A DNA stretch of 64,000 bases from Candidatus Limnocylindrales bacterium. Its GTDB lineage: Bacteria; Moduliflexota; Moduliflexia; Moduliflexales; JAUQPW01. Below the pieces are notes generated by a model that was given only the letters and a program-made list of their open reading frames with translations, was not told the DNA's origin and did no database searches. Positions 2,510 through 36,252 of the stretch are shown one piece after another. The translations under genes were made by a program, and so were the position numbers. The stretch is taken from the NCBI GenBank assembly GCA_035559535.1, contig DATMBG010000051.1:456767-520766 (forward strand). Reading direction: 5' to 3'. Position 1 is the first letter of the stretch. Each line of letters begins with the position of its first letter.

Positions 2510-4246
2510 ATGGTAAAGAATACAAAGAATAAAAAATGGTTCGAACGACCTTTCAAGGTCATCAGTTTGATATTATTGTTGGGTACCATGGGCCATCCGT
2601 GGGCCATCGCTAAAAGTCAGAACCAACCGGCCACATATCTTTCCCCTCAGCTCAAGGGAGACAGGCAACCTTCAACAACCGATAAAGGCCCAAAATTCTT
2701 ACCGGATGATCCCATCTGGGTAGATCCCGATCGATTTTCCATCCCTAAGCCCCGGCAAATTGAGTTAAGCCAGGTCTATGACTTCCTGGAGAACACCTTT
2801 GCAGACCCAGGGGGTAGCTTTAACCGGCGGGCTCAAAATATTAATACCTTGGGAGAGGTCCCTGATTCCAGTTGGTTTACCAACCGAATTGGACTTCATC
2901 CCATGACCGTGGAGCAATTGGTTCGGGGTCCCAACCGGGGGGATGGACCTGACAGGTCGCAACCCTGGACGATTATTAAAGCTAAATCCGAAGGAATTAC
3001 ACCCGGGTTTGTAATCCGAGATGGACGAGGAGATATCTACTTTATCAAGTTCGATCCTTTACAATATCCCCAGATGGCAACCTCTACCGAGGTAATCAGC
3101 ACCAAGTTTTTCTATGCCTTTGGATATAACGTGCCCGAAAACTATCTGGCCTTTCTGCAACCAGATCAACTTCAAATCGATCCCGAAGCCGTGGTTACCG
3201 GGGAAGATGGCAAGAAAAGAAAGATGACCCTGGAGGATGTCGTAGAGCTTCTCAAGAAGGTTCCTAAACGTCCAGATGGAACCATTCAAGTTGTTGCAAG
3301 CCTTAAACTTCCTGGAGAGCCGTTAGGGCCTTTTAAATATTATGGAACACGAAGTGATGACCCCAACGATATTTTCCCCCATGAAGATCGGCGCGAGTTA
3401 CGGGGACTACGCGTCTTTGCTGCCTGGTTGAATCACAACGACTCCCGCAGTATTAACTCTCTGGATATGTACGTCACCGAGGAAGGACGGAGTTATGTTA
3501 AACATTACCTCATCGATTTTGGCGCCACGCTGGGTAGTGCCTCTGTAAAACCCAATGCACGTCGTGAAGGTTTTGCCTATCTCCTGGAATGGGACCCTAT
3601 ATGGAAGTCTGCTTTGACGTTAGGATTTAAAGGTCGTCCCTGGCAGCATATCAAATATCCCAATTATCCCGAGATAGGAAGATTCGAATCTTCCTTCTTC
3701 AGACCGGAGAGTTGGAAACCCAACTATCCCAATCCTGCATTCATTCGGATGCAGAACGAAGATGCCTTTTGGGCAACCCGTACCGTCATGCATTTCAATG
3801 ATGAAGCCATCCGGGCCATTGTGAAAACCGGACAAATCTCCAATCCAGAAGCCGAGAACTACCTGATTGAAACCCTCCTTCGAAGAAGAGATAAGATTAT
3901 TCAGTACTACTTGAGTCAGATTAATCCCCTGGATGATTTTCAACTAAACGACGAGACCCGAACTTTAAACTTCAAAAACCTGGGAGTAGAGGCTAAGCTG
4001 GCTCCGGTGGAAGCTTATGAGTATCAATGGTTCCGATTCGATAATCAACGAGGCTCATCGGAACCCTTAGGTCCCCCTCAATCGCTATCTTCTCCTTCTT
4101 TACCTCTTCCACAGGATGGTTCTCCCTATTGGATGGTAAGGATACGAACGATAAGTAAAAACCAGGTAAACTGGAAGAAGAAGGTAGAAGTGTTTATACG
4201 AAACGGTTCACATAGAACCGTTGTAGGCATTGAGAGAGAGAATTAA
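2510..4246 (+). CDS. Exported protein with protein-kinase-like fold motifs (copy 1)
   Basis: 578 residues of no family I can name. An N-terminal signal segment (about 18-35, ending AIA) predicts export. The middle reads like an atypical kinase of the HipA/FAM20 sort: a beta hairpin with Lys180 in YFIKFDP, Glu194 in a following helix (TEVISTKFF), a loop with Asp311 and Asn316 spaced D-x4-N (NHNDSRSIN), and DFG at 336-338 (HYLIDFGATLG). The paralogue at 34492 keeps all of these. The C-terminal 130 residues look like a separate beta-rich domain. The order Lys, Glu, D-x4-N, DFG is seen directly. That it binds ATP or phosphorylates anything is inference. It lies between an Omp85-like barrel gene and a nucleotide-exchange carrier. 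A pseudokinase or scaffold role is possible. Confidence 0.6.
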   Translation: MVKNTKNKKWFERPFKVISLILLLGTMGHPWAIAKSQNQPATYLSPQLKGDRQPSTTDKGPKFLPDDPIWVDPDRFSIPKPRQIELSQVYDFLENTFADPGGSFNRRAQNINTLGEVPDSSWFTNRIGLHPMTVEQLVRGPNRGDGPDRSQPWTIIKAKSEGITPGFVIRDGRGDIYFIKFDPLQYPQMATSTEVISTKFFYAFGYNVPENYLAFLQPDQLQIDPEAVVTGEDGKKRKMTLEDVVELLKKVPKRPDGTIQVVASLKLPGEPLGPFKYYGTRSDDPNDIFPHEDRRELRGLRVFAAWLNHNDSRSINSLDMYVTEEGRSYVKHYLIDFGATLGSASVKPNARREGFAYLLEWDPIWKSALTLGFKGRPWQHIKYPNYPEIGRFESSFFRPESWKPNYPNPAFIRMQNEDAFWATRTVMHFNDEAIRAIVKTGQISNPEAENYLIETLLRRRDKIIQYYLSQINPLDDFQLNDETRTLNFKNLGVEAKLAPVEAYEYQWFRFDNQRGSSEPLGPPQSLSSPSLPLPQDGSPYWMVRIRTISKNQVNWKKKVEVFIRNGSHRTVVGIEREN

Positions 4247-4363: not shown

Positions 4364-5716
4364 ATGAGGACTGTAGAAGTCAGATCCAGAAAGAGCGTGC
4401 TAGAGCAGTTCCTTGGGCTCTTCACCGAAGTTCGAGCCGGGGAAGGACCGACCGTCCTTCTATTGACCATAAACCTGTTTCTTATTCTGACTGCTTATTA
4501 CGTCCTTAAACCTGTACGTGAAGCCCTGATCCTTGCGGGAGGAGGTGCCGAGATAAAAAGCTATGCGGCGGCGGGGCAGGCTCTCTTACTTCTCGGTGCA
4601 GTACCCCTCTATTCTGCACTGGCAAGCCGTTTCACAAGACGCCGACTTATCAATACTGTTACGGTTTTCTTCACTGCTTGTCTGGTATTTTTCTACCTTC
4701 TCGCCCATCTTAATGTCCCCCTGGGAGTTGTGTTTTATTTGTGGATGGGAATCTTTAACCTGATGGTTATAGCTCAAATCTGGTCCTTTGCCAACGACCT
4801 TTATACTCCAGAAGAAGGAAAACGTCTCTTCCCTATTGTAGCCTTTGGGGCTTCCTCAGGAGCTGTATTTGGAAGTTTTATTACCAGCCATCTTATCGGC
4901 CTGCTCGGAGTGTATCAACTTCTTTTGGTCGGTGCAGCTATTTTGATTCTAAGCCTTCTCATTACAAATTTCATCGATCAGCGAGAACAATACCAAGTTA
5001 AAATAAAGGCGGGACCGAAACCTGCCTTGTCACCAGGAGAAGCGCCCATTGGCAAAGGAGGCGGCTTTCAACTGGTTATTAAGAGTAAGTACCTGCTTTT
5101 AATCGCCTGCCTTATGTTATTTTTGAACTGGGTAAATACCAACGGAGAATATATCCTGGGAAAAACGGTATCAAAGGCGGCCATTGAGGCAGTAGCTTCA
5201 GGAAACTCGGGAGGGCTCTCCGAAAAAGAATTTATAGGAAAGTTTTACTCGGACTTTTTTACCTGGGTAAACATGTTGGGACTCCTGGCCCAGCTTTTCC
5301 TGGTTTCTCGTATCCTCAAATACCTGGGCATACAGATTGCGATCCTTATTCTACCAATAATTGCCCTGAGTGGTTATGCCTTACTTGCCTTCTATCCCAT
5401 CTTGGGTGTAGTCCGTTGGGTAAAGATTGCAGAGAATGCAACCGACTATAGTCTACAAAATACCGTTCGCAACGCTTTGTTTTTACCCACTACACGAGAA
5501 GAAAAATACAAAGCTAAACAGGCTGTTGACACCTTCTTTGTGCGGGCCGGAGATGTTCTCTCCGCAGGATTGGTCTATGTCGGGGTCAATAAGCTGGCCT
5601 TCAACACCAAAAATTTTGCCCTGGTAAACCTTGGGCTTGTGGTCATCTGGTTCATCCTTGCAATTTTTATCGGCAAAAAGAACCAACAATTAACGACTCC
5701 TGCCTCTCAAAGCTAA
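4364..5716 (+). CDS. ATP/ADP translocase-type (NTP/NDP exchange) membrane carrier
   Basis: 450 residues with about 11-12 hydrophobic segments. The start of the first membrane domain (NLFLILTAYYVLKPVREALI) and the segment QIWSFANDLYTPEEGKRLFP are typical of the bacterial/plastid Tlc family and its non-parasitic relatives, which exchange nucleotides across the inner membrane. In free-living bacteria the substrate of these proteins is mostly unproven, so exchange of ATP for ADP is family knowledge and not shown here. The gene starts 117 bp after the exported kinase-fold gene on the same strand, which suggests co-expression. No second copy accompanies the other barrel/kinase cassette at 33-36 kb. 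Confidence 0.75.
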   Translation: MRTVEVRSRKSVLEQFLGLFTEVRAGEGPTVLLLTINLFLILTAYYVLKPVREALILAGGGAEIKSYAAAGQALLLLGAVPLYSALASRFTRRRLINTVTVFFTACLVFFYLLAHLNVPLGVVFYLWMGIFNLMVIAQIWSFANDLYTPEEGKRLFPIVAFGASSGAVFGSFITSHLIGLLGVYQLLLVGAAILILSLLITNFIDQREQYQVKIKAGPKPALSPGEAPIGKGGGFQLVIKSKYLLLIACLMLFLNWVNTNGEYILGKTVSKAAIEAVASGNSGGLSEKEFIGKFYSDFFTWVNMLGLLAQLFLVSRILKYLGIQIAILILPIIALSGYALLAFYPILGVVRWVKIAENATDYSLQNTVRNALFLPTTREEKYKAKQAVDTFFVRAGDVLSAGLVYVGVNKLAFNTKNFALVNLGLVVIWFILAIFIGKKNQQLTTPASQS

Positions 5717-6522: not shown

Positions 6523-6894
6523 ATGAGCTATTATATTCATAACATTCCAGGAAGACTACGCATCAAGACTCCTGTTGCTAAAAGCAGCTCTCAGCAGGCT
6601 AAAGCCATCCAAAGAATTCTTCACTCGATACCTGGCATTCTTTCAACCCTTGTAAACCCTCTTACAGGGAGTATTGTTATTCACTATGATCCTGAGGTAG
6701 TGAACTCGGAAGAAATCTTGAATACCCTGAATCAGCAAGATTATTTTGACTGGTCCCGGGCGGTAACAAATGATCAATATATACGGGATATAGTCGCAAA
6801 AATAGGTAAGGTAATTTGGAAAGCTTTTTTTGGAACCTTGGTAGAAGAAGCCTTAGAAGGCTCTTCTCTCTCCTTCATAAAGGTTCTTATATAA
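6523..6894 (+). CDS. Small HMA-like domain protein
   Basis: 123 residues. The first 75 follow the ferredoxin-like heavy-metal-associated fold pattern (IPGRLRIKTP, helix, PGILSTLVNPLTGSIVIHYDP, helix). It lacks the CxxC metal-binding pair of classical HMA domains and so fits the HMA_2-type relatives. The C-terminal part has one weakly hydrophobic segment. The VNPLTGSI signature is shared with the protein at 12350-12853 and the N-terminus of the P-type ATPase at 8350-11526 (ANVLTGNVLV), which links this plus-strand pair to the minus-strand operon. It may modulate or localise the ATPase. I cannot assign a metal. Confidence 0.65.
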   Translation: MSYYIHNIPGRLRIKTPVAKSSSQQAKAIQRILHSIPGILSTLVNPLTGSIVIHYDPEVVNSEEILNTLNQQDYFDWSRAVTNDQYIRDIVAKIGKVIWKAFFGTLVEEALEGSSLSFIKVLI

Positions 6895-8349: not shown

Positions 8350-11300
8350 TTAGAATATCTTTTTATTTTTCGTTATTTCATTTAATATAAGCGGAACCAG
8401 GGCACTACTCCCTACGACCAGGCTATCAGTCAGACTTATAGGGGTAATGCCGAGGAGATTCCGGATTCCTGGAATCAGGAGAGCGACGATTTGTAATGCA
8501 AAGGAGCCTCCTAAAGCCATCGTAAGATAAGTGTTAGACGGAAGTTTCCCTTTATCCCATAAACCGTATTTCTCAGAGCGGCAACTCATAGCATGAAGAA
8601 GCTGACTTGAGGTTAATCCCATAAAGGCCAGAGTACTTGCCTGGGGCCCCCGACCATATTTTAGAATCCCGTAACCATAAGCTCCCAAGGCACCACCGGC
8701 TATTGTTCCCGCTTCGAAGATTATTCTTTTAAAATCGGATGTTTTAAGGATAGGTTCCTCGGGGTCTCGGGGAGGTCGGCTAAGGATATCAGGTTCTGGA
8801 GATTCCAGAGCAAGAGCAAGACCTGGAAAGATATCCGAAATTAAGTTAATCCACAGGAGTTGCATGGCGTTCAAAGGATGACCCAGACCTGCCGTAAGGG
8901 CCACAAACATCACCATGATTTCACTCAGGTTAGTAGCCAAGAGGAAATGAACCGATTTCCGTATGTTATTATAAATAGTCCGTCCCTGGCTTAGGGCAAC
9001 AATCATAGTTTCGAGGTTATCGTCTTCAAGTATAATATCGGCTACTTCTCGAGCCACATCGGTCCCTGTCTTTCCCATGGCAATTCCGATATTTGCTGCC
9101 TTTAAAGCCGGTCCATCATTAATTCCATCGCCTGTCATGGCAACGACTTTTCCGGCCCTCTGGAGAGCTTGAACAATCCGCAGCTTATGGGCAGGGCTGA
9201 CCCTTGCGAAAACGTGTACCCGTTCGGCTAATCCCTTTAAAATCTCCGGGTCCATTTCGGTAAGATGGGTTGAATCCAGAATTTCCAGTTGCTTATCCTG
9301 ACTTAGATGGAGTTCCTTTCCTATGGCGTAAGCCGTCGGGCTTTGATCTCCTGTTATCATGACCGTATTGATTCCGGCTTGGTGAAGAACTCCAAGAACT
9401 TCCTTGACCCCTTTTCTTATGGGATCTATCATCCCGATAAGACCGAGCCATATCAACCCTTTCTGGACGTTAAGATTTTCCTCTCCCTCATCGAAGTAAG
9501 TATGGGCAACCCCCAGAACCCGAAGGGCCTCTCCGGCCATGAATTCATTCTCCATTTCTATGCGTAGTCGATCCTCTTCCGTAAGTGGGATCTTTATTCC
9601 ATCTTTGATCTGCCAATCACAAAGGGATAAAACCTCTGTAGGACTCCCTTTTAAGGCCAGAAGCAGAGAAGACTTACCGGATTCCCCTATATCATGAGTC
9701 CTATGAAGGGTGCTCATAAAGTTACGATTTTCGGAACGGTGACTGATCTTCACTATGGGATGTACTTTCCGAAGTTCTATCACATCAACCCCCGCACTGA
9801 TCCCCATGTGAATCAGCGCATTTTCAGTAGGAGAACCTTTAAGAATATACTCATTGTCTGTTCTAATGATTTCAGTTTCATTACAGAGAACTGAGATATG
9901 AATCAACCTCAATAATTCTTCACAGGTGAAAGGGTTAATCGACTCCTTTCCCGTCATGAATTTGCCCTCGGATACTCTCAAGGATTTCATTCCCGTATGG
10001 ATAGCAACCACAGCCATTTTATTCAAAGTAATGGTTCCTGTCTTATCCAAACAAAGGGTTTGAACAGAACCCAGAGTCTCTACAGCATCGAGATGGCGGA
10101 TAAGAACTTTCTGTTTCCGCATATTCCGAATACCCAGGGCCAGGGTGGTGGTTGCAACGGTTGGAAGTCCTTCAGGAACAGCAGCTACGGCCAGAGAGAT
10201 AGAGGTGGTCAGCATTTGAGTGAAACCATATCCCCGCAGGAGTCCAATTACGAAAACCAAACCACAAATCGTACCACCTATCAGAACCAGCTGACGTCCC
10301 ATTCTGTTTAACTGCCTTTCCATGGGAGTTTCAGGGGTTTCCGCCTCTCCAACAAGGGTTTGAATCTGGCCCATCTCCGTAAACTTACCAGTAGCCACAA
10401 CAACGGCAAGTCCCTGTCCCCCGGTAACCAAAGTTCCCATATAAACCATATTTACTCTATCGGCCAAAGGGACAGCTTTTGAAGAGAGAATAGGTTGAGA
10501 GGTTTTAAGAACCGGCACACTTTCCCCGGTTAGAGCAGATTCATCTATACTAAGATGATGGCTCTCAATGAGTCGACCATCAGCAACCACGTAGCTTCCG
10601 GGTCTAAGGACCAGCACATCTCCTGGAACGACTTCCTCTGCCCTTATTTCCTGGAGGTAACCCTGCCGGATTACCAAAGCGGAAGGTCTGATTAAGCTCT
10701 TGAGAGCATGAATGGTTTTCTCCGATTGGGTTTCTGTTATATAACCAATCGTTGCGTTGATGGCAACAACCCCCATAATAACCACTGCATCTGCAAGTCC
10801 ACCGGTAAAAAGGGAAATACCCGCCGCTACAGTTAAAAGAGCTACAGGAAGAGAGTTTAGTTGATCAAAAAAGATACTAAGCCCGGAGCGAGGAGCCGAT
10901 TCAGGTAAGACATTGGGCCCATATGTCTTCAAACGTTCCCTGGCAACCTCACCGGATAAACCGGATTCCCCTGAGCTATTAAAGGCAGTTATAACCTCCT
11001 CGGTATCCACCAGATACCAGGGTTTGAGAACCTGCTCTTCCTCTTGAGTAATCAGCTTTCTTAAGGTTCTTCTGATAGCAGGCAGGGAAGAAGCATCCAA
11101 ATCCGCCGGTTTTTCTTCTTTTCTATAAGATAGGGGGAAAGCTGAGGTTATTAATCTCTCAGAAGGGGGATTTAAAGGCTTTGGTAAGTTCTCTTTGGAA
11201 AAAGAAAAGGATAAATTTTCTTGCCGGGTTGATCCTCCTGGAAGAAAAGAAGGACCGAGGTTTTCGGATCGCCCAGTTTCCTGGTTTTCATATTTAAGCG

Positions 11301-11526
11301 CAATATCCTCAATAAGGGCCGCTATTTCTGATACCGTGTTATCTGAGTTAAAAACAACCAGAACATTTCCGGTCAATACGTTGGCAGAGACCTGATAGAT
11401 TCCTTCCTTATTTAGGAGCCTGAACTCAAGTTCTTTTTTAAAGGAGTTTGAACGATAAAGCAAAGATACTTTGTATCGGGCTCTTCCCTTTACTGCGGTG
11501 TGGATCGCCTGGATTAACACCTTCAC
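8350..11526 (-). CDS. P-type cation-transporting ATPase with N-terminal HMA-like domain
   Basis: 1058 residues in the inner membrane. Residues 1-80 are an HMA-like domain without CxxC. After a linker comes a cation-ATPase N-terminal domain (about 165-235), the actuator loop TGES with Glu335, the membrane motif AVPEGLP, the phosphorylated Asp494 in DKTGT, and the hinge GDGINDGPALKAANIG. The closing membrane segments read WINLISDIFPGLALALE, like P2-type (Ca2+/Mn2+-class) pumps. M6 differs from SERCA at the ion-binding positions, so the ion is open. The unusual HMA-like extension matches neighbouring small proteins (6523, 12350), suggesting they interact. It follows the 22-mer repeat protein by 68 bp. 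Confidence 0.85.
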   Translation of the reverse strand: MKVLIQAIHTAVKGRARYKVSLLYRSNSFKKELEFRLLNKEGIYQVSANVLTGNVLVVFNSDNTVSEIAALIEDIALKYENQETGRSENLGPSFLPGGSTRQENLSFSFSKENLPKPLNPPSERLITSAFPLSYRKEEKPADLDASSLPAIRRTLRKLITQEEEQVLKPWYLVDTEEVITAFNSSGESGLSGEVARERLKTYGPNVLPESAPRSGLSIFFDQLNSLPVALLTVAAGISLFTGGLADAVVIMGVVAINATIGYITETQSEKTIHALKSLIRPSALVIRQGYLQEIRAEEVVPGDVLVLRPGSYVVADGRLIESHHLSIDESALTGESVPVLKTSQPILSSKAVPLADRVNMVYMGTLVTGGQGLAVVVATGKFTEMGQIQTLVGEAETPETPMERQLNRMGRQLVLIGGTICGLVFVIGLLRGYGFTQMLTTSISLAVAAVPEGLPTVATTTLALGIRNMRKQKVLIRHLDAVETLGSVQTLCLDKTGTITLNKMAVVAIHTGMKSLRVSEGKFMTGKESINPFTCEELLRLIHISVLCNETEIIRTDNEYILKGSPTENALIHMGISAGVDVIELRKVHPIVKISHRSENRNFMSTLHRTHDIGESGKSSLLLALKGSPTEVLSLCDWQIKDGIKIPLTEEDRLRIEMENEFMAGEALRVLGVAHTYFDEGEENLNVQKGLIWLGLIGMIDPIRKGVKEVLGVLHQAGINTVMITGDQSPTAYAIGKELHLSQDKQLEILDSTHLTEMDPEILKGLAERVHVFARVSPAHKLRIVQALQRAGKVVAMTGDGINDGPALKAANIGIAMGKTGTDVAREVADIILEDDNLETMIVALSQGRTIYNNIRKSVHFLLATNLSEIMVMFVALTAGLGHPLNAMQLLWINLISDIFPGLALALESPEPDILSRPPRDPEEPILKTSDFKRIIFEAGTIAGGALGAYGYGILKYGRGPQASTLAFMGLTSSQLLHAMSCRSEKYGLWDKGKLPSNTYLTMALGGSFALQIVALLIPGIRNLLGITPISLTDSLVVGSSALVPLILNEITKNKKIF

Positions 11527-11594: not shown

Positions 11595-12305
11595 TTATTC
11601 CTGTTTTCTTCCCTTTGTCCTTGTCGTAATCTCCGGCTTTTCAGGAGCTTCTTGAGGAGTTTCCTTAGAAAGTTTCTTCTCTTCTAAACTTGAAGAAGTT
11701 GGAGAAGGTTTAGGTAGTGCAGCTCCTACAACTTCCTTCGCCCCCTCCGCAACTCCAACGAGCATATCCTTAACAGCTTTGACTGCCGTGTTTCCAATGG
11801 TACTGGCTGCTTCAATGGCACCGAGAACAACTTCTCTCGCAACAGCTTCTACATTCCCACCCATTTCTCGAGTTGCTTCGATAATCCCATCTACCGAGCG
11901 CCTTGTTACAAGACCGATATCTGCTCCAATTTCAGCAGCACCTTTGAACGTCCCTTTAACGGTTTGAACTGCGACGGTAACCACATCCCCTCCCACATCG
12001 CTAACTCCCATGATAACCCCCTTGGCGACATTTTTGGCGCTCAAGATTAATCCTGTTCCTACCTCTTCGGTAGCCTGAATGGCTCCATTTATAATCTCCT
12101 TGGTGATATGGATACTTTCTGTAGCTGTTGATCCTGTAGTTCGCAGGGTGTGCGAAACAGTATTCCTGACCAGCGTAGTAATCTCGGCCTCGATTTCGTT
12201 GATCCCTCTCAAACTCCCTATAATCCCTTCCTTAACCGTTTTCCCAGCTTTCCCTAATTCCCCTCCCAGAGTGGCATTTGATGTGTTGTCCTTATGATCA
12301 TTCAT
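11595..12305 (-). CDS. Amphipathic 22-residue-repeat protein
   Basis: 236 residues with no signal peptide. From about residue 65 to 195 the sequence repeats with a period of about 22 residues. Units begin VKGTFKGAAEIGADIG, VDGIIEATREMGGNVE and VLGAIEAASTIGNTAV, each ending in a small-residue turn. Such 11/22-mer patterns form long amphipathic helices, as in apolipoproteins, phasins and some LEA or membrane-coat proteins. The C-terminal 40 residues are charged, Pro-rich and probably disordered. It has no Trp or Cys. It lies between the HMA-like/DUF5132 genes and the P-type ATPase, so a membrane-surface scaffold for the pump is plausible. No function can be assigned from homology. Confidence 0.65.
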   Translation of the reverse strand: MNDHKDNTSNATLGGELGKAGKTVKEGIIGSLRGINEIEAEITTLVRNTVSHTLRTTGSTATESIHITKEIINGAIQATEEVGTGLILSAKNVAKGVIMGVSDVGGDVVTVAVQTVKGTFKGAAEIGADIGLVTRRSVDGIIEATREMGGNVEAVAREVVLGAIEAASTIGNTAVKAVKDMLVGVAEGAKEVVGAALPKPSPTSSSLEEKKLSKETPQEAPEKPEITTRTKGRKQE

Positions 12306-12349: not shown

Positions 12350-12853
12350 TCACGGGTCCTTTCTGTTCTTATCTGACTTAAACTTAAAAAACTCATAAAC
12401 ACTGAATCCGTACCAAAAAGCCGTATACCAGGGAATAGGTGCGAGATTTCCCCTGAGAATTTGAAAAAGACCTGCGCTCACCAGACCTAAAAACACCAGG
12501 CCTGGAAAATCCAGAGTACCCCGGGTAAACTCCTTCATTCGATTCTCTAACTCTTGAAGTTGTCTGGATATCGTCCAGGATAAGTTCTCTGACTGAGGGT
12601 TCAGATCTCCAAGTTGAAAAAGATTATTTTTTTGAGCATATGCTGCAAGGGCTTTCCAGTCCCGAGTGTCCCCCGTATGAACAAAAAGTATGCTTCCCGT
12701 TAAGGGGTTTACTTCTAGCTTTTTAATTCCCGGATAGGTAGAAAACAGAGTCTTCAGAGATGAAAAATAAACTTCATCTCCTCTTTTCGAGGGAATTTTT
12801 ATACGTAGCCTTTCGGTTGTAGAATGAACGATATAAGCATCGGGAAGCATCAA
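12350..12853 (-). CDS. HMA-like domain protein with C-terminal membrane segment
   Basis: 167 residues. The first 75 form an HMA-like domain without CxxC (RLRIKIPSKRG, then PGIKKLEVNPLTGSILFVH). A helical, charged linker follows, then a hydrophobic stretch at about 118-150 (FPGLVFLGLVSAGLFQIL) that should cross or dip into the membrane. Its ATG overlaps the end of the DUF5132 gene by four bases, which implies translational coupling. The architecture is like the 6523 protein with a longer tail. Inference: a membrane-tethered partner of the adjacent P-type ATPase, which carries the same domain at its own N-terminus. Confidence 0.65.
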   Translation of the reverse strand: MMLPDAYIVHSTTERLRIKIPSKRGDEVYFSSLKTLFSTYPGIKKLEVNPLTGSILFVHTGDTRDWKALAAYAQKNNLFQLGDLNPQSENLSWTISRQLQELENRMKEFTRGTLDFPGLVFLGLVSAGLFQILRGNLAPIPWYTAFWYGFSVYEFFKFKSDKNRKDP

Positions 12854-33121: not shown

Positions 33122-34429
33122 ATGAACCCAATAACAAAAAGGATTGTTTTCCTCCTCTTTTTTGTAAATCTATTTTTTGTCCAAAACGAAGTTTTCAGCG
33201 CCTCCGAAGAAAGTTCCGAGCTGCAAACCGAAGCGGAGCGACAACGTCTTCAAAAGCTTCAAAACATCCAGCCTCCCAACCAGAGTGGCGTGGAACGAGG
33301 GCTTGTCTGGTTAGAAGGCTATTTTCTTGAAGGCATACTTCCCAATTATAAAGGATTTACCCCTCAAGTAGGAACCATTACATCGGGTTCCAGCATCGCT
33401 TTTGGAGGACTTTACTGGAAGCCCAATATCGGCGGCTCGATCATTGACCTTCAAGTTTCTGGTGGCTATTCAATCTTGGGCTATCAGGAATACGAGTTGC
33501 AAATCGGAAGGGTTACCCAAAAACCGACCCTCTTTTTAGAATTCCCTCATTTTATCGGGGATATCTTCCAATTTGGTGATATTCGACAGGAGGATCGGGA
33601 TTTTTTCCTTTACGCGGATCTGGATTATCGCAATTTTCCTCAGCAAGATTTTTTTGGTATTGGTCCGAACTCCCTGGAAGACAATCGAACTGATTATAAA
33701 CTGGAAGGAGCTACCTATGATGCCGTCGTAGGGTATCAGTTTAACCGTTGGCTTCGTACCGGCCTCCGGGTGGGGTTTATACAGGTAAATATCGATCGGG
33801 GTACCGATGAGAGCATTCCAGCCACACAAGACGTATTCAATGATATTTCAGCCCCGGGATTGGCCAAACAACCGGACTTTTTTCGCCTGAGTAGCTCTCT
33901 AATCTTTAACTATCGGGATGTACCGGGAAATCCTCACCGGGGTGGAGTCTTAGGGTTTATGTTTACCCGATATCAGGATCTTGATGAGGATCAATTCAGC
34001 TTCAATCGTTTCGCCTTTGATGCTCGACATTACTTACCTTTAGGGTCACCTGCCCGGGTTCTTGCTGTTCGATTCTTTACTTCCCTGGATGACACCGATG
34101 AAGGAAATCGGGTTCCTTTTTACCTCCAGGAAACTTTAGGAGGAAGTAATACGCTGCAAGGCTTTCGTTCCTTTCGTTTTCAGGATACAAACTTGCTATA
34201 CCTCGCCGCCGAATATCGATGGGAAGCCTTAGATTATCTGGAATTTGCCCTTTTTTATGATACAGGTAAGGTTTTTGCCGACCGGTCTGATTTTAATCTT
34301 ACCGATTTAGAAGATAGTTACGGCTTTGGAGTCCGATTTAAAGCACCGAGTTCGGTCATCTTCCGGTTTGATATAGGTCACAGCGTCGAAGGTACTCAAC
34401 TTTATTTTGCCTTTGGATCCACGTTTTAA
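33122..34429 (+). CDS. Omp85/D15-family outer-membrane barrel without POTRA domains (copy 2)
   Basis: 435 residues, paralogue of the 1151-2440 product over its whole length. It has a signal peptide (about 1-25, ending VFSA), the same short linker with QRLQKLQNIQP, the barrel with LGGSNTLQGFRSF (here LQGF in place of the Omp85 LRGF, so the hallmark Arg is Gln), EYRWEAL, FYDTGKVF, and a C-terminal Phe (GSTF). It is followed 62 bp later by the second kinase-fold gene. Loss of the motif Arg in one copy may indicate functional divergence. Confidence 0.8.
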   Translation: MNPITKRIVFLLFFVNLFFVQNEVFSASEESSELQTEAERQRLQKLQNIQPPNQSGVERGLVWLEGYFLEGILPNYKGFTPQVGTITSGSSIAFGGLYWKPNIGGSIIDLQVSGGYSILGYQEYELQIGRVTQKPTLFLEFPHFIGDIFQFGDIRQEDRDFFLYADLDYRNFPQQDFFGIGPNSLEDNRTDYKLEGATYDAVVGYQFNRWLRTGLRVGFIQVNIDRGTDESIPATQDVFNDISAPGLAKQPDFFRLSSSLIFNYRDVPGNPHRGGVLGFMFTRYQDLDEDQFSFNRFAFDARHYLPLGSPARVLAVRFFTSLDDTDEGNRVPFYLQETLGGSNTLQGFRSFRFQDTNLLYLAAEYRWEALDYLEFALFYDTGKVFADRSDFNLTDLEDSYGFGVRFKAPSSVIFRFDIGHSVEGTQLYFAFGSTF

Positions 34430-34491: not shown

Positions 34492-36252
34492 ATGAAAGAT
34501 TTACTAAAGCAACTTTCCAAAATACTCTGGCTTGGACTCTTGTTATCCGTAATCAACCTTTCGGGAGCAATTGCCTGGGACAACCAACAACAATCCAACG
34601 ATCCTTCAACCCGACCTGAGACAAGGAACGTAGAACCGGTCGCGGATCAAAAACCCAAATTCTTTCCCTATGATCCTGTATGGGTAGATCGAGACCAGAT
34701 TTCCATTCCCAAGCCAAAACCTATTGAGTTGAGTAAGATATATGATTTTGCAGAGAACACCTTTAGTAAGCCTGGAGATCCAACGATTCGGCGGGCTCAG
34801 AACATCAACACCCTGGGAGAAGTTCCCGATTCCAGTTGGTTTACCAACCGAATTGGACTCCACCCCATGACTTTAGAACAACTCGCTCGGGGCCCCAATC
34901 GAAGCGATGGACCGGATATGTCCGGCCCCTGGACCATCATCTCAGCCAAAACTCAGGGCGTTACCCCGGGATTCGTCATGAAGGATAGCCGAGGAGATAC
35001 TTATTTTATCAAGTTAGATCCCAAGAAATACCCCCAAATGGCAACCTCAGCCGAGGTCATAAGCACGAAGTTTTTCTACGCCTTTGGATATAATGTTCCG
35101 GAGAACTATCTCGCCTTCTTCCGACCGGAGCAACTTAAAATTGGACCGGAAGCTAAAGTTCCCGGTAGGGATGGTAAAAAACGACCGATGACCAAAGCCG
35201 ATATCGATGCGATCCTGTGTAAAGTGCCGAAGCGTTCCGATGGAACCATTCAGGCTCTTGCCAGTCTCAAGCTTCCAGGAGAACCCCTGGGTCCTTTTAA
35301 ATATTATGGAACCCGAAGTGACGACCCCAACGATATATTTCCCCATGAGAACCGTCGTGAGTTACGAGGATTGCAAGTTTTTTTCTCCTGGTTGAACGAT
35401 AATGATTCCGATGCGACCAATACTTTAGATATGTATGTAACGGAAGCAGGTCGTAGCTACGTTAAGCATTACCTCATCGATTTTGGAACCACCCTGGGGA
35501 GTGCGGCCATTGCTCCCCATGGTCCCCGGGAAGGGAATGCCTACTACTTTGAAGGGAAGCCCACTCTGAAATCGGCCCTTACTTTAGGCCTCTGGGACCC
35601 CCCTTGGAGACACATCCAATATCAAGAATATCCGGAAATCGGACGGTTTGAAGCTTCTTATTTCCGACCCGAACACTGGAAACCAGATTATCCCAATCCT
35701 GCCGGCATTCGGATGCAGAATGAAGATGCCTTCTGGGCTACCCGGACGGTAATGCGTTTTACCGATGAGATGGTCCGGGCCATTGTAAAAACCGGTCAAA
35801 TTTCTAACCCGGAAGCCGAGAATTTTCTCGTAAAAACTCTCCTTCAAAGACGAGATAAGATCCTTCATTATTATCTAAACCAGATTAACCCCTTAGATGA
35901 TTTTCGGTTAGTCATCCCAGAAACAACTCCCCAAACTACTCCGGAACAGCCTGAGGAAGCTACTCCTTTCCTGAATTTCAAAAATCTAGGAGTAGAAGCC
36001 AGAATTTCTACGGCTAATTCATACGAGTATCAATGGTTCCGATTTAATAACCAAGACGGTTCAACAGAACCTTTGACCGAGATTCAATCCTCTGCCTCTC
36101 CCTCAATCCCTGTACCCCAGGATGCTTCTCCTTATCTCATGGTAAGAATCCGAACCCTCAGTCCGAATCAGGAAAACTGGAAGAAAAAAGTAGAAGTTTT
36201 TATCCGTAACATTCCGGAAAAATCCGTCGTAGGAATTGAAAGGGAAAACTAA
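34492..36252 (+). CDS. Exported protein with protein-kinase-like fold motifs (copy 2)
   Basis: 586 residues from the ATG at 34492, preferred over an in-frame TTG at 34447 because it puts the signal peptide (ILWLGLLLSVINLSGAIA) at the N-terminus. It is collinear with the 2510-4246 product. The kinase-like motifs are all kept: YFIKLDP (Lys), SAEVISTKFFYAFGY (Glu), LNDNDSDATN (D-x4-N) and HYLIDFGTTLG (DFG). A Thr/Pro-rich insertion (PETTPQTTPEQPEE) precedes the C-terminal beta-rich domain. No nucleotide carrier follows this copy; 6-phosphogluconolactonase is convergent. What it phosphorylates, if anything, is unknown. Confidence 0.6.
   Translation: MKDLLKQLSKILWLGLLLSVINLSGAIAWDNQQQSNDPSTRPETRNVEPVADQKPKFFPYDPVWVDRDQISIPKPKPIELSKIYDFAENTFSKPGDPTIRRAQNINTLGEVPDSSWFTNRIGLHPMTLEQLARGPNRSDGPDMSGPWTIISAKTQGVTPGFVMKDSRGDTYFIKLDPKKYPQMATSAEVISTKFFYAFGYNVPENYLAFFRPEQLKIGPEAKVPGRDGKKRPMTKADIDAILCKVPKRSDGTIQALASLKLPGEPLGPFKYYGTRSDDPNDIFPHENRRELRGLQVFFSWLNDNDSDATNTLDMYVTEAGRSYVKHYLIDFGTTLGSAAIAPHGPREGNAYYFEGKPTLKSALTLGLWDPPWRHIQYQEYPEIGRFEASYFRPEHWKPDYPNPAGIRMQNEDAFWATRTVMRFTDEMVRAIVKTGQISNPEAENFLVKTLLQRRDKILHYYLNQINPLDDFRLVIPETTPQTTPEQPEEATPFLNFKNLGVEARISTANSYEYQWFRFNNQDGSTEPLTEIQSSASPSIPVPQDASPYLMVRIRTLSPNQENWKKKVEVFIRNIPEKSVVGIEREN

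Follow-up and report, generated by a model that had tools for sequence, protein, structure and literature searches.

Locus and predicted fold

We analysed a 64,000-nucleotide stretch of Candidatus Limnocylindrales bacterium (assembly GCA_035559535.1, contig DATMBG010000051.1, positions 456,767 to 520,766, forward strand), referred to here as the window, which encodes a likely exported kinase-fold protein, P0001. Its gene is flanked upstream by that of P0003, a barrel protein of the Omp85 superfamily, and downstream, on the same strand and starting 117 bases beyond the stop codon of P0001, by a gene for an ATP/ADP-transporter-like protein of the TLC/NTT type, and the window contains a second barrel and kinase-fold pair, P0004 and P0002 (Table 1). 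P0001 and P0002 share 68–70% identity and are the only two kinase-fold copies found in the 5.6-Mb assembly in a search at E ≤ 0.001. Comparison of the paralogues gave a nonsynonymous divergence (dN) of 0.21 with saturated synonymous divergence (dS) for P0001/P0002 (NG86) and a dN of 0.30 versus a dS of 2.4 for P0003/P0004, values which show that both the kinase gene and the barrel gene are under purifying selection. A scan for promoters and terminators gave signals at chance level.

Table 1. Features of the two barrel–kinase pairs and the transporter-like gene (positions in the window).
Feature	Position	Strand	Remarks
Partner 1, P0003: POTRA-less Omp85-superfamily barrel, 429 residues	1151..2440	+	
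P0001: likely exported kinase-fold protein, 578 residues	2510..4246	+	Intact open reading frame
P0001 signal-peptide-like N terminus, residues 1-34	2510..2611	+	Read from the sequence; cleavage guessed after Ala-Ile-Ala
P0001 Lys180, beta3-type lysine	3047..3049	+	Model strand 176-181
P0001 Glu194, alphaC-type acidic residue	3089..3091	+	Model helix 189-204
P0001 catalytic loop D311-x4-N316	3440..3457	+	Loop after model helix 295-307
P0001 DFG motif 336-338	3515..3523	+	After model strand 327-334
P0001 C-terminal beta domain, residues 474-578, perhaps Ig/FN3-like	3929..4243	+	
Partner 2: TLC/NTT-type ATP/ADP-transporter-like protein	4364..5716	+	Pfam TLC
P0004: second barrel copy	33122..34429	+	Pfam Omp85 57.3 bits; 55% identity to P0003
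P0002: second kinase-fold copy, 586 residues, intact	34492..36252	+	TLC-like gene not beside P0002

The original prediction had listed a Lys (180), a Glu (194), an Asp and an Asn (311 and 316) and a DFG motif (336–338) as kinase-fold signatures of P0001, and all of these were found where it had placed them; its further claim that the paralogue keeps them was borne out for Lys180, Asp311, Asn316 and Asp336 by alignment and for the Glu and the DFG from the translation of P0002. The confident structure model of P0001 (predicted local distance difference test score, pLDDT, of 92) has a two-lobe kinase fold with the elements in order, Lys180 on a strand, Glu194 on a helix, then the D311/N316 loop and the DFG motif, these placements being taken from the secondary structure of the model and the aligned ranges rather than from a residue-by-residue superposition on a solved kinase. 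A structural search returned CtkA, Fam20C, PI4KII-alpha, CotH and HipT/HipA as the closest solved structures. The model thus supports the kinase-fold reading of P0001.

P0001 and P0002 are also members of an unnamed family, as had been proposed, both lying below the Pfam and NCBIfam cut-offs. HipA_2, their only Pfam match up to E 1, scored 12.5 and 13.4 bits respectively versus a cut-off of 27, and the NCBIfam search returned no match to either. Among 42 other members, Pfam matches, counted by E value and not judged against cut-offs, were to HipA_2 in 18 (best E 5.8e-4) and to HipA_C in three (best E 8.3e-5), and sequence searches of the PDB with P0001 and with profile A2 revealed no convincing relative. 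Compared with HipA, HipT and CtkA (HipA_C, HipA_2; PF20613 / PF07804), P0001 differs in its signal-peptide-like N terminus, its extra C-terminal beta domain and in having an Omp85 partner in place of an antitoxin. With the Fam20 proteins (Fam20C/A) it has the fold in common, at 8–12% identity in the structural matches; the disulfides described for Fam20A and Fam20B in passages of PMC7948968 are not matched in P0001, which has no Cys, or in P0002, which has one. CotH lacks the putative metal-binding DFG according to passages of PMC12189002, unlike P0001. The same passages class CotH and HipA among the atypical kinases, also cover effector kinases injected into host cells, and make no mention of a periplasmic bacterial kinase like P0001.

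Conservation and distribution of the kinase-fold family

The kinase residues are conserved beyond chance. Among the 83 aligned members, Asp is found at position 311 in 80, Asn at position 316 in 81, and the D, F and G of the DFG motif in 81, 81 and 78 respectively. Position 180 is Lys in 75 members (Glu in five), and position 194 has Glu in 55 members, Asp in 24. Rather than varying freely, Lys180, Asp311, Asn316 and Asp336 are kept together in 72 of the 83 members, and a chance motif is ruled out by the predicted fold and this conservation. In the five members with Glu at position 180 (L015, L054, L056, L068 and L076), Asp311, Asn316 and Asp336 stay; two others, L025 (5926-9399) and L043 (5953-9405), have lost both Lys180 and Asp311, carry about 600 extra C-terminal residues and, judged from their sequences, are likely pseudokinases. 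Immediately before the catalytic loop is a block, R281-x-D283-D284-x-N286-D287 ... R294-R295-x-L297-R298, whose conservation equals or exceeds that of the kinase residues, and which is a candidate sequence signature of the family (residues 281–298). The signal peptide claimed for P0001 agrees with its signal-peptide-like start, and in 80 of the 83 members a crude hydropathy test, which is distinct from a signal-peptide predictor, places a similar hydrophobic stretch ahead of the conserved domain.

When about 5.8 billion proteins were searched, scoring of the 7997 candidates that shared most words with the query gave at least 7463 homologues. For none of the 120 homologues listed is a Pfam domain precomputed, and those with a name are annotated as 'hypothetical protein' of Acidobacteria. 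Carriers of the kinase-fold protein are mostly Acidobacteriota among the bacteria sampled. In the phylum of Edaphobacter aggregans (G005, the genome of locus L073), strong matches (E 1e-40 or better) occur in at least 50 of 297 genomes and weak matches only in 22 more, counts that are a lower bound because at most four candidates were scored per genome. Among four genomes of the window's own phylum, the family was found only in that of the window, a genome of the same genus giving no match. The database loci described below are the best 80 of 176 relatives, and spacings were measured for 66 of the 81 family open reading frames of the alignment. Two loci on contigs titled Arcobacter and Haloarculaceae (L081 and L067 respectively) encode ordinary members of the family, these assignments being probably binning errors in public assemblies.

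A second, shorter family of 326–355 residues with signal-peptide-like starts was also observed (L103:525-1505, L104:331-1380 and L105:383-1450). It has the Lys, the helix Glu and an N-W-D-x-K-x-x-N-N-like loop, with DVG replacing DFG, and none of its three proteins matched Pfam. A profile built from them matched most members of the main family (E 3e-15 to 9e-4), so the two families are homologous.

The barrel partner and the transporter-like neighbour

The kinase gene lies directly behind an Omp85 barrel gene at 79 of the 80 database loci, the single miss being at a contig end. Similarly, in 20 whole genomes, 29 of the 30 kinases have a barrel and 29 of the 31 barrels a kinase beside them, the unpaired barrels being G019:C66 and G016:C51; this count used 30 of 31 kinase matches and the 31 of 91 barrel matches that scored above 250 bits, the other barrel matches scoring at most 68 bits. 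We know of no Omp85 partner of CotH. The barrel partners are 303–449 residues long at 70 loci (72 partner reading frames were gathered). P0003 is predicted to form a 16-strand Omp85 barrel, with the LRGF motif in the long loop that connects strands 11 and 12, and its N terminus consists of a signal-peptide-like start followed by two short helices (28–42 and 50–66) before strand 1. A POTRA domain was found neither by Pfam nor in the structure model of P0003. In being a barrel without an N-terminal extension, P0003 resembles the noNterm Omp85 subfamily (Heinz and Lithgow, 2014; PMC4104836), to which passages of that paper ascribe a suggested role in membrane-protein biogenesis; P0003 is instead tied to a kinase gene, and the likeness is one of architecture. 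PlpD likewise combines an enzyme with an Omp85 barrel, and its enzyme domain is periplasmic (PMC11116518), but that domain is patatin-like, whereas here there are two separate genes, a kinase fold and no POTRA.

The transporter-like protein of the window scores above the Pfam TLC cut-off (44.1 versus 21 bits). Within the genome its gene ranks first among the TLC-like matches (602 bits, the next best reaching 234), and more distant TLC-like genes are present on other contigs. A PDB sequence search with this protein gave a single match, to TatC, with E 0.02. Characterised NTTs stem from parasites or endosymbiotic organelles, according to passages of PMC5381601; the subfamily in the window is linked to a kinase-fold gene and is, as far as we found, uncharacterised. 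Elsewhere, a TLC-like reading frame is present within the fetched flanks, which were short at many loci, of 30 of 79 loci (L060 was omitted, its kinase reading frame being split in two), and in 22 of these 30 the stop-to-stop frame overlaps the module, comes within 400 bases of it or is continuous with that of the barrel. At L079:3252-5762 and L080:3356-5896, a TLC transporter domain of the inner-membrane type is followed in the same open frame by a signal-peptide-like stretch and then by an Omp85 barrel, a fusion that is perhaps split by signal peptidase.

All 20 whole genomes have at least one TLC-like gene. Of 54 such genes, 14 are found no further than 10 kb from a kinase gene, compared with 0.29 expected; 13 of 29 kinases have one within this distance. 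The share near a kinase is eight of 17 for window-like TLC genes (at least 380 bits) and six of 37 for lower-scoring ones. For this test, 54 of 59 TLC matches were used, after removal of three fragments (G011:C494), G005:C44:20643 (near a module) and one match with E 9e-4, together with 29 of 31 kinase matches, after removal of a fragment (G007:C143) and a 24.5-bit match (G019:C66). The corresponding Poisson value of 3e-19 is indicative only, because the genomes were hand-picked from holders of the module (eight of the 20 loci being already known to have a nearby TLC-like reading frame) and because alignment A4, with which the TLC genes were found, includes module-linked TLC members. Near two of the nine window-like TLC copies outside the module we observed a similar membrane protein (L107:9581-11569 and L114:3163-4527), which, as a guess from its translation, resembles a nucleoside transporter.

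A possible extracytoplasmic phosphorylation module

We found no description of the kinase-fold family, its fixed pairing with a barrel or its link to a transporter in open-licence PubMed Central papers; the folds are known, and the family, the gene pair and the link were not found in print. Most of what points to a function comes from the Omp85 partner and the ATP/ADP-transporter-like gene, neither of which was seen in the original prediction. Since ATP is generally assumed to be scarce or absent in the bacterial periplasm, kinases there should be pointless; a nearby transporter would account for the access of an extracytoplasmic kinase to ATP. The reading that we favour, with a confidence just short of even, is that the conserved pair of barrel and kinase-fold genes, often found near an NTT/TLC gene, is an extracytoplasmic phosphorylation module. 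The folds, the conserved residues, the fixed pairing of the genes and the enrichment of the transporter come from computation, and for the module we infer kinase activity, location, ATP supply and substrate. The Sec pathway would export the kinase-fold protein and the barrel; the barrel would insert in the outer membrane and probably hold the kinase on the periplasmic face, with the PlpD enzyme domain as a model; the TLC-type transporter would probably move ATP out against the ADP produced by the kinase; and the kinase would then phosphorylate an envelope protein, glycan or lipid. Module copies with no transporter nearby would then need to share one encoded elsewhere. We also propose, tentatively, that the system may be self-contained, with an NTT-type antiporter swapping cytoplasmic ATP for the ADP of a kinase on a dedicated POTRA-less Omp85 barrel as a bacterial counterpart of Fam20C phosphorylation in the Golgi; if true, this would assign a function both to POTRA-less Omp85 barrels and to the NTTs that free-living bacteria encode. 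With a large family unnamed in Pfam, a barrel and a transporter neighbour in hand, phosphorylation of the envelope from outside becomes directly testable, and there is a functional lead for these barrels and for the nucleotide-transporter relatives of free-living bacteria.

A number of observations weigh against the phosphorylation module, several of them shared with other readings. The nearest neighbours of barrel and kinase agree in only 39 of 68 cases, and the co-divergence of the two may only reflect the shared species tree. A C-lobe profile weakly matched HipA_2 proteins (0.0085–0.044), and this similarity and the fold would suit the HipA-type toxin of a toxin-antitoxin pair, which we nonetheless consider highly improbable and reject, given the signal-peptide-like N terminus of most members and a constant neighbour that is an outer-membrane-type barrel and not a small DNA-binding antitoxin. 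At least one of the four core residues is lost in 11 of the 83 members (including the five with Lys replaced by Glu, and L025 and L043), and kinase-fold proteins with other activities exist, such as SidJ and SelO, the former being a weak Foldseek match to P0001 (rank 42). Even so, a kinase fold with another reaction or with ligand binding only, as in a pseudokinase or an AMP- or glutamyl-transferase, seems quite unlikely, since ligand binding alone would hardly demand that 72 members keep Lys, Asp, Asn and Asp; the DFG Asp, too, is nearly invariant. As for the transporter, in the 20 genomes no TLC-like gene is present within 10 kb of 16 of 29 kinases (contig ends not being allowed for), and the second kinase copy of the window lacks one too, so it is not an obligatory neighbour. 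Conversely, nine of the 17 window-like TLC genes are separated by more than 10 kb from any kinase, the fetched stretch containing neither a kinase nor a barrel gene in eight of these nine and a module about 10 kb away in the other (L115). Bacteria are reported to release ATP by other means (review, PMC7432876), and the transporter thus need not be the ATP source. NTTs of free-living bacteria are described as widespread and functionally uncharacterised (passages of PMC5381601). The link could be indirect, the TLC-like protein moving another solute and the kinase being independent of it, a reading that we regard as possible though doubtful: the 14 genes near a kinase are drawn from both the window-like and the more distant TLC groups, TLC and barrel occur in one frame in two genomes, and around the nine non-module copies no neighbour recurs in more than two, apart from the TLC gene itself and antisense frames. 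Another exported kinase was looked for beside these nine and was not found.

The barrel might instead translocate the kinase, in the style of two-partner secretion, to the cell surface or the medium, where ATP would be dilute, to act on external substrates. A fixed gene pair with a barrel of the Omp85 superfamily, which includes protein translocators such as FhaC (PMC4104836), would fit this reading, which we consider unlikely. As a family assignment, two-partner secretion is rejected, with no POTRA in the barrel by Pfam or in the model and no TPS-type domain in the kinase-fold partner by Pfam. Because the barrel lacks POTRA and the PlpD enzyme domain, whose translocation had been assumed, was located solely to the periplasm (PMC11116518), docking of the kinase on the periplasmic face is preferred over its secretion.

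Elsewhere in the window (6523-6894, 8350-11526, 11595-12305 and 12350-12853) are encoded two short proteins, a P-type-ATPase-like protein and an intervening repetitive protein. Their translations revealed a similar N-terminal stretch, GRLRIK / GRARYK / ERLRIK, common to the two short proteins and the P-type-ATPase-like protein.
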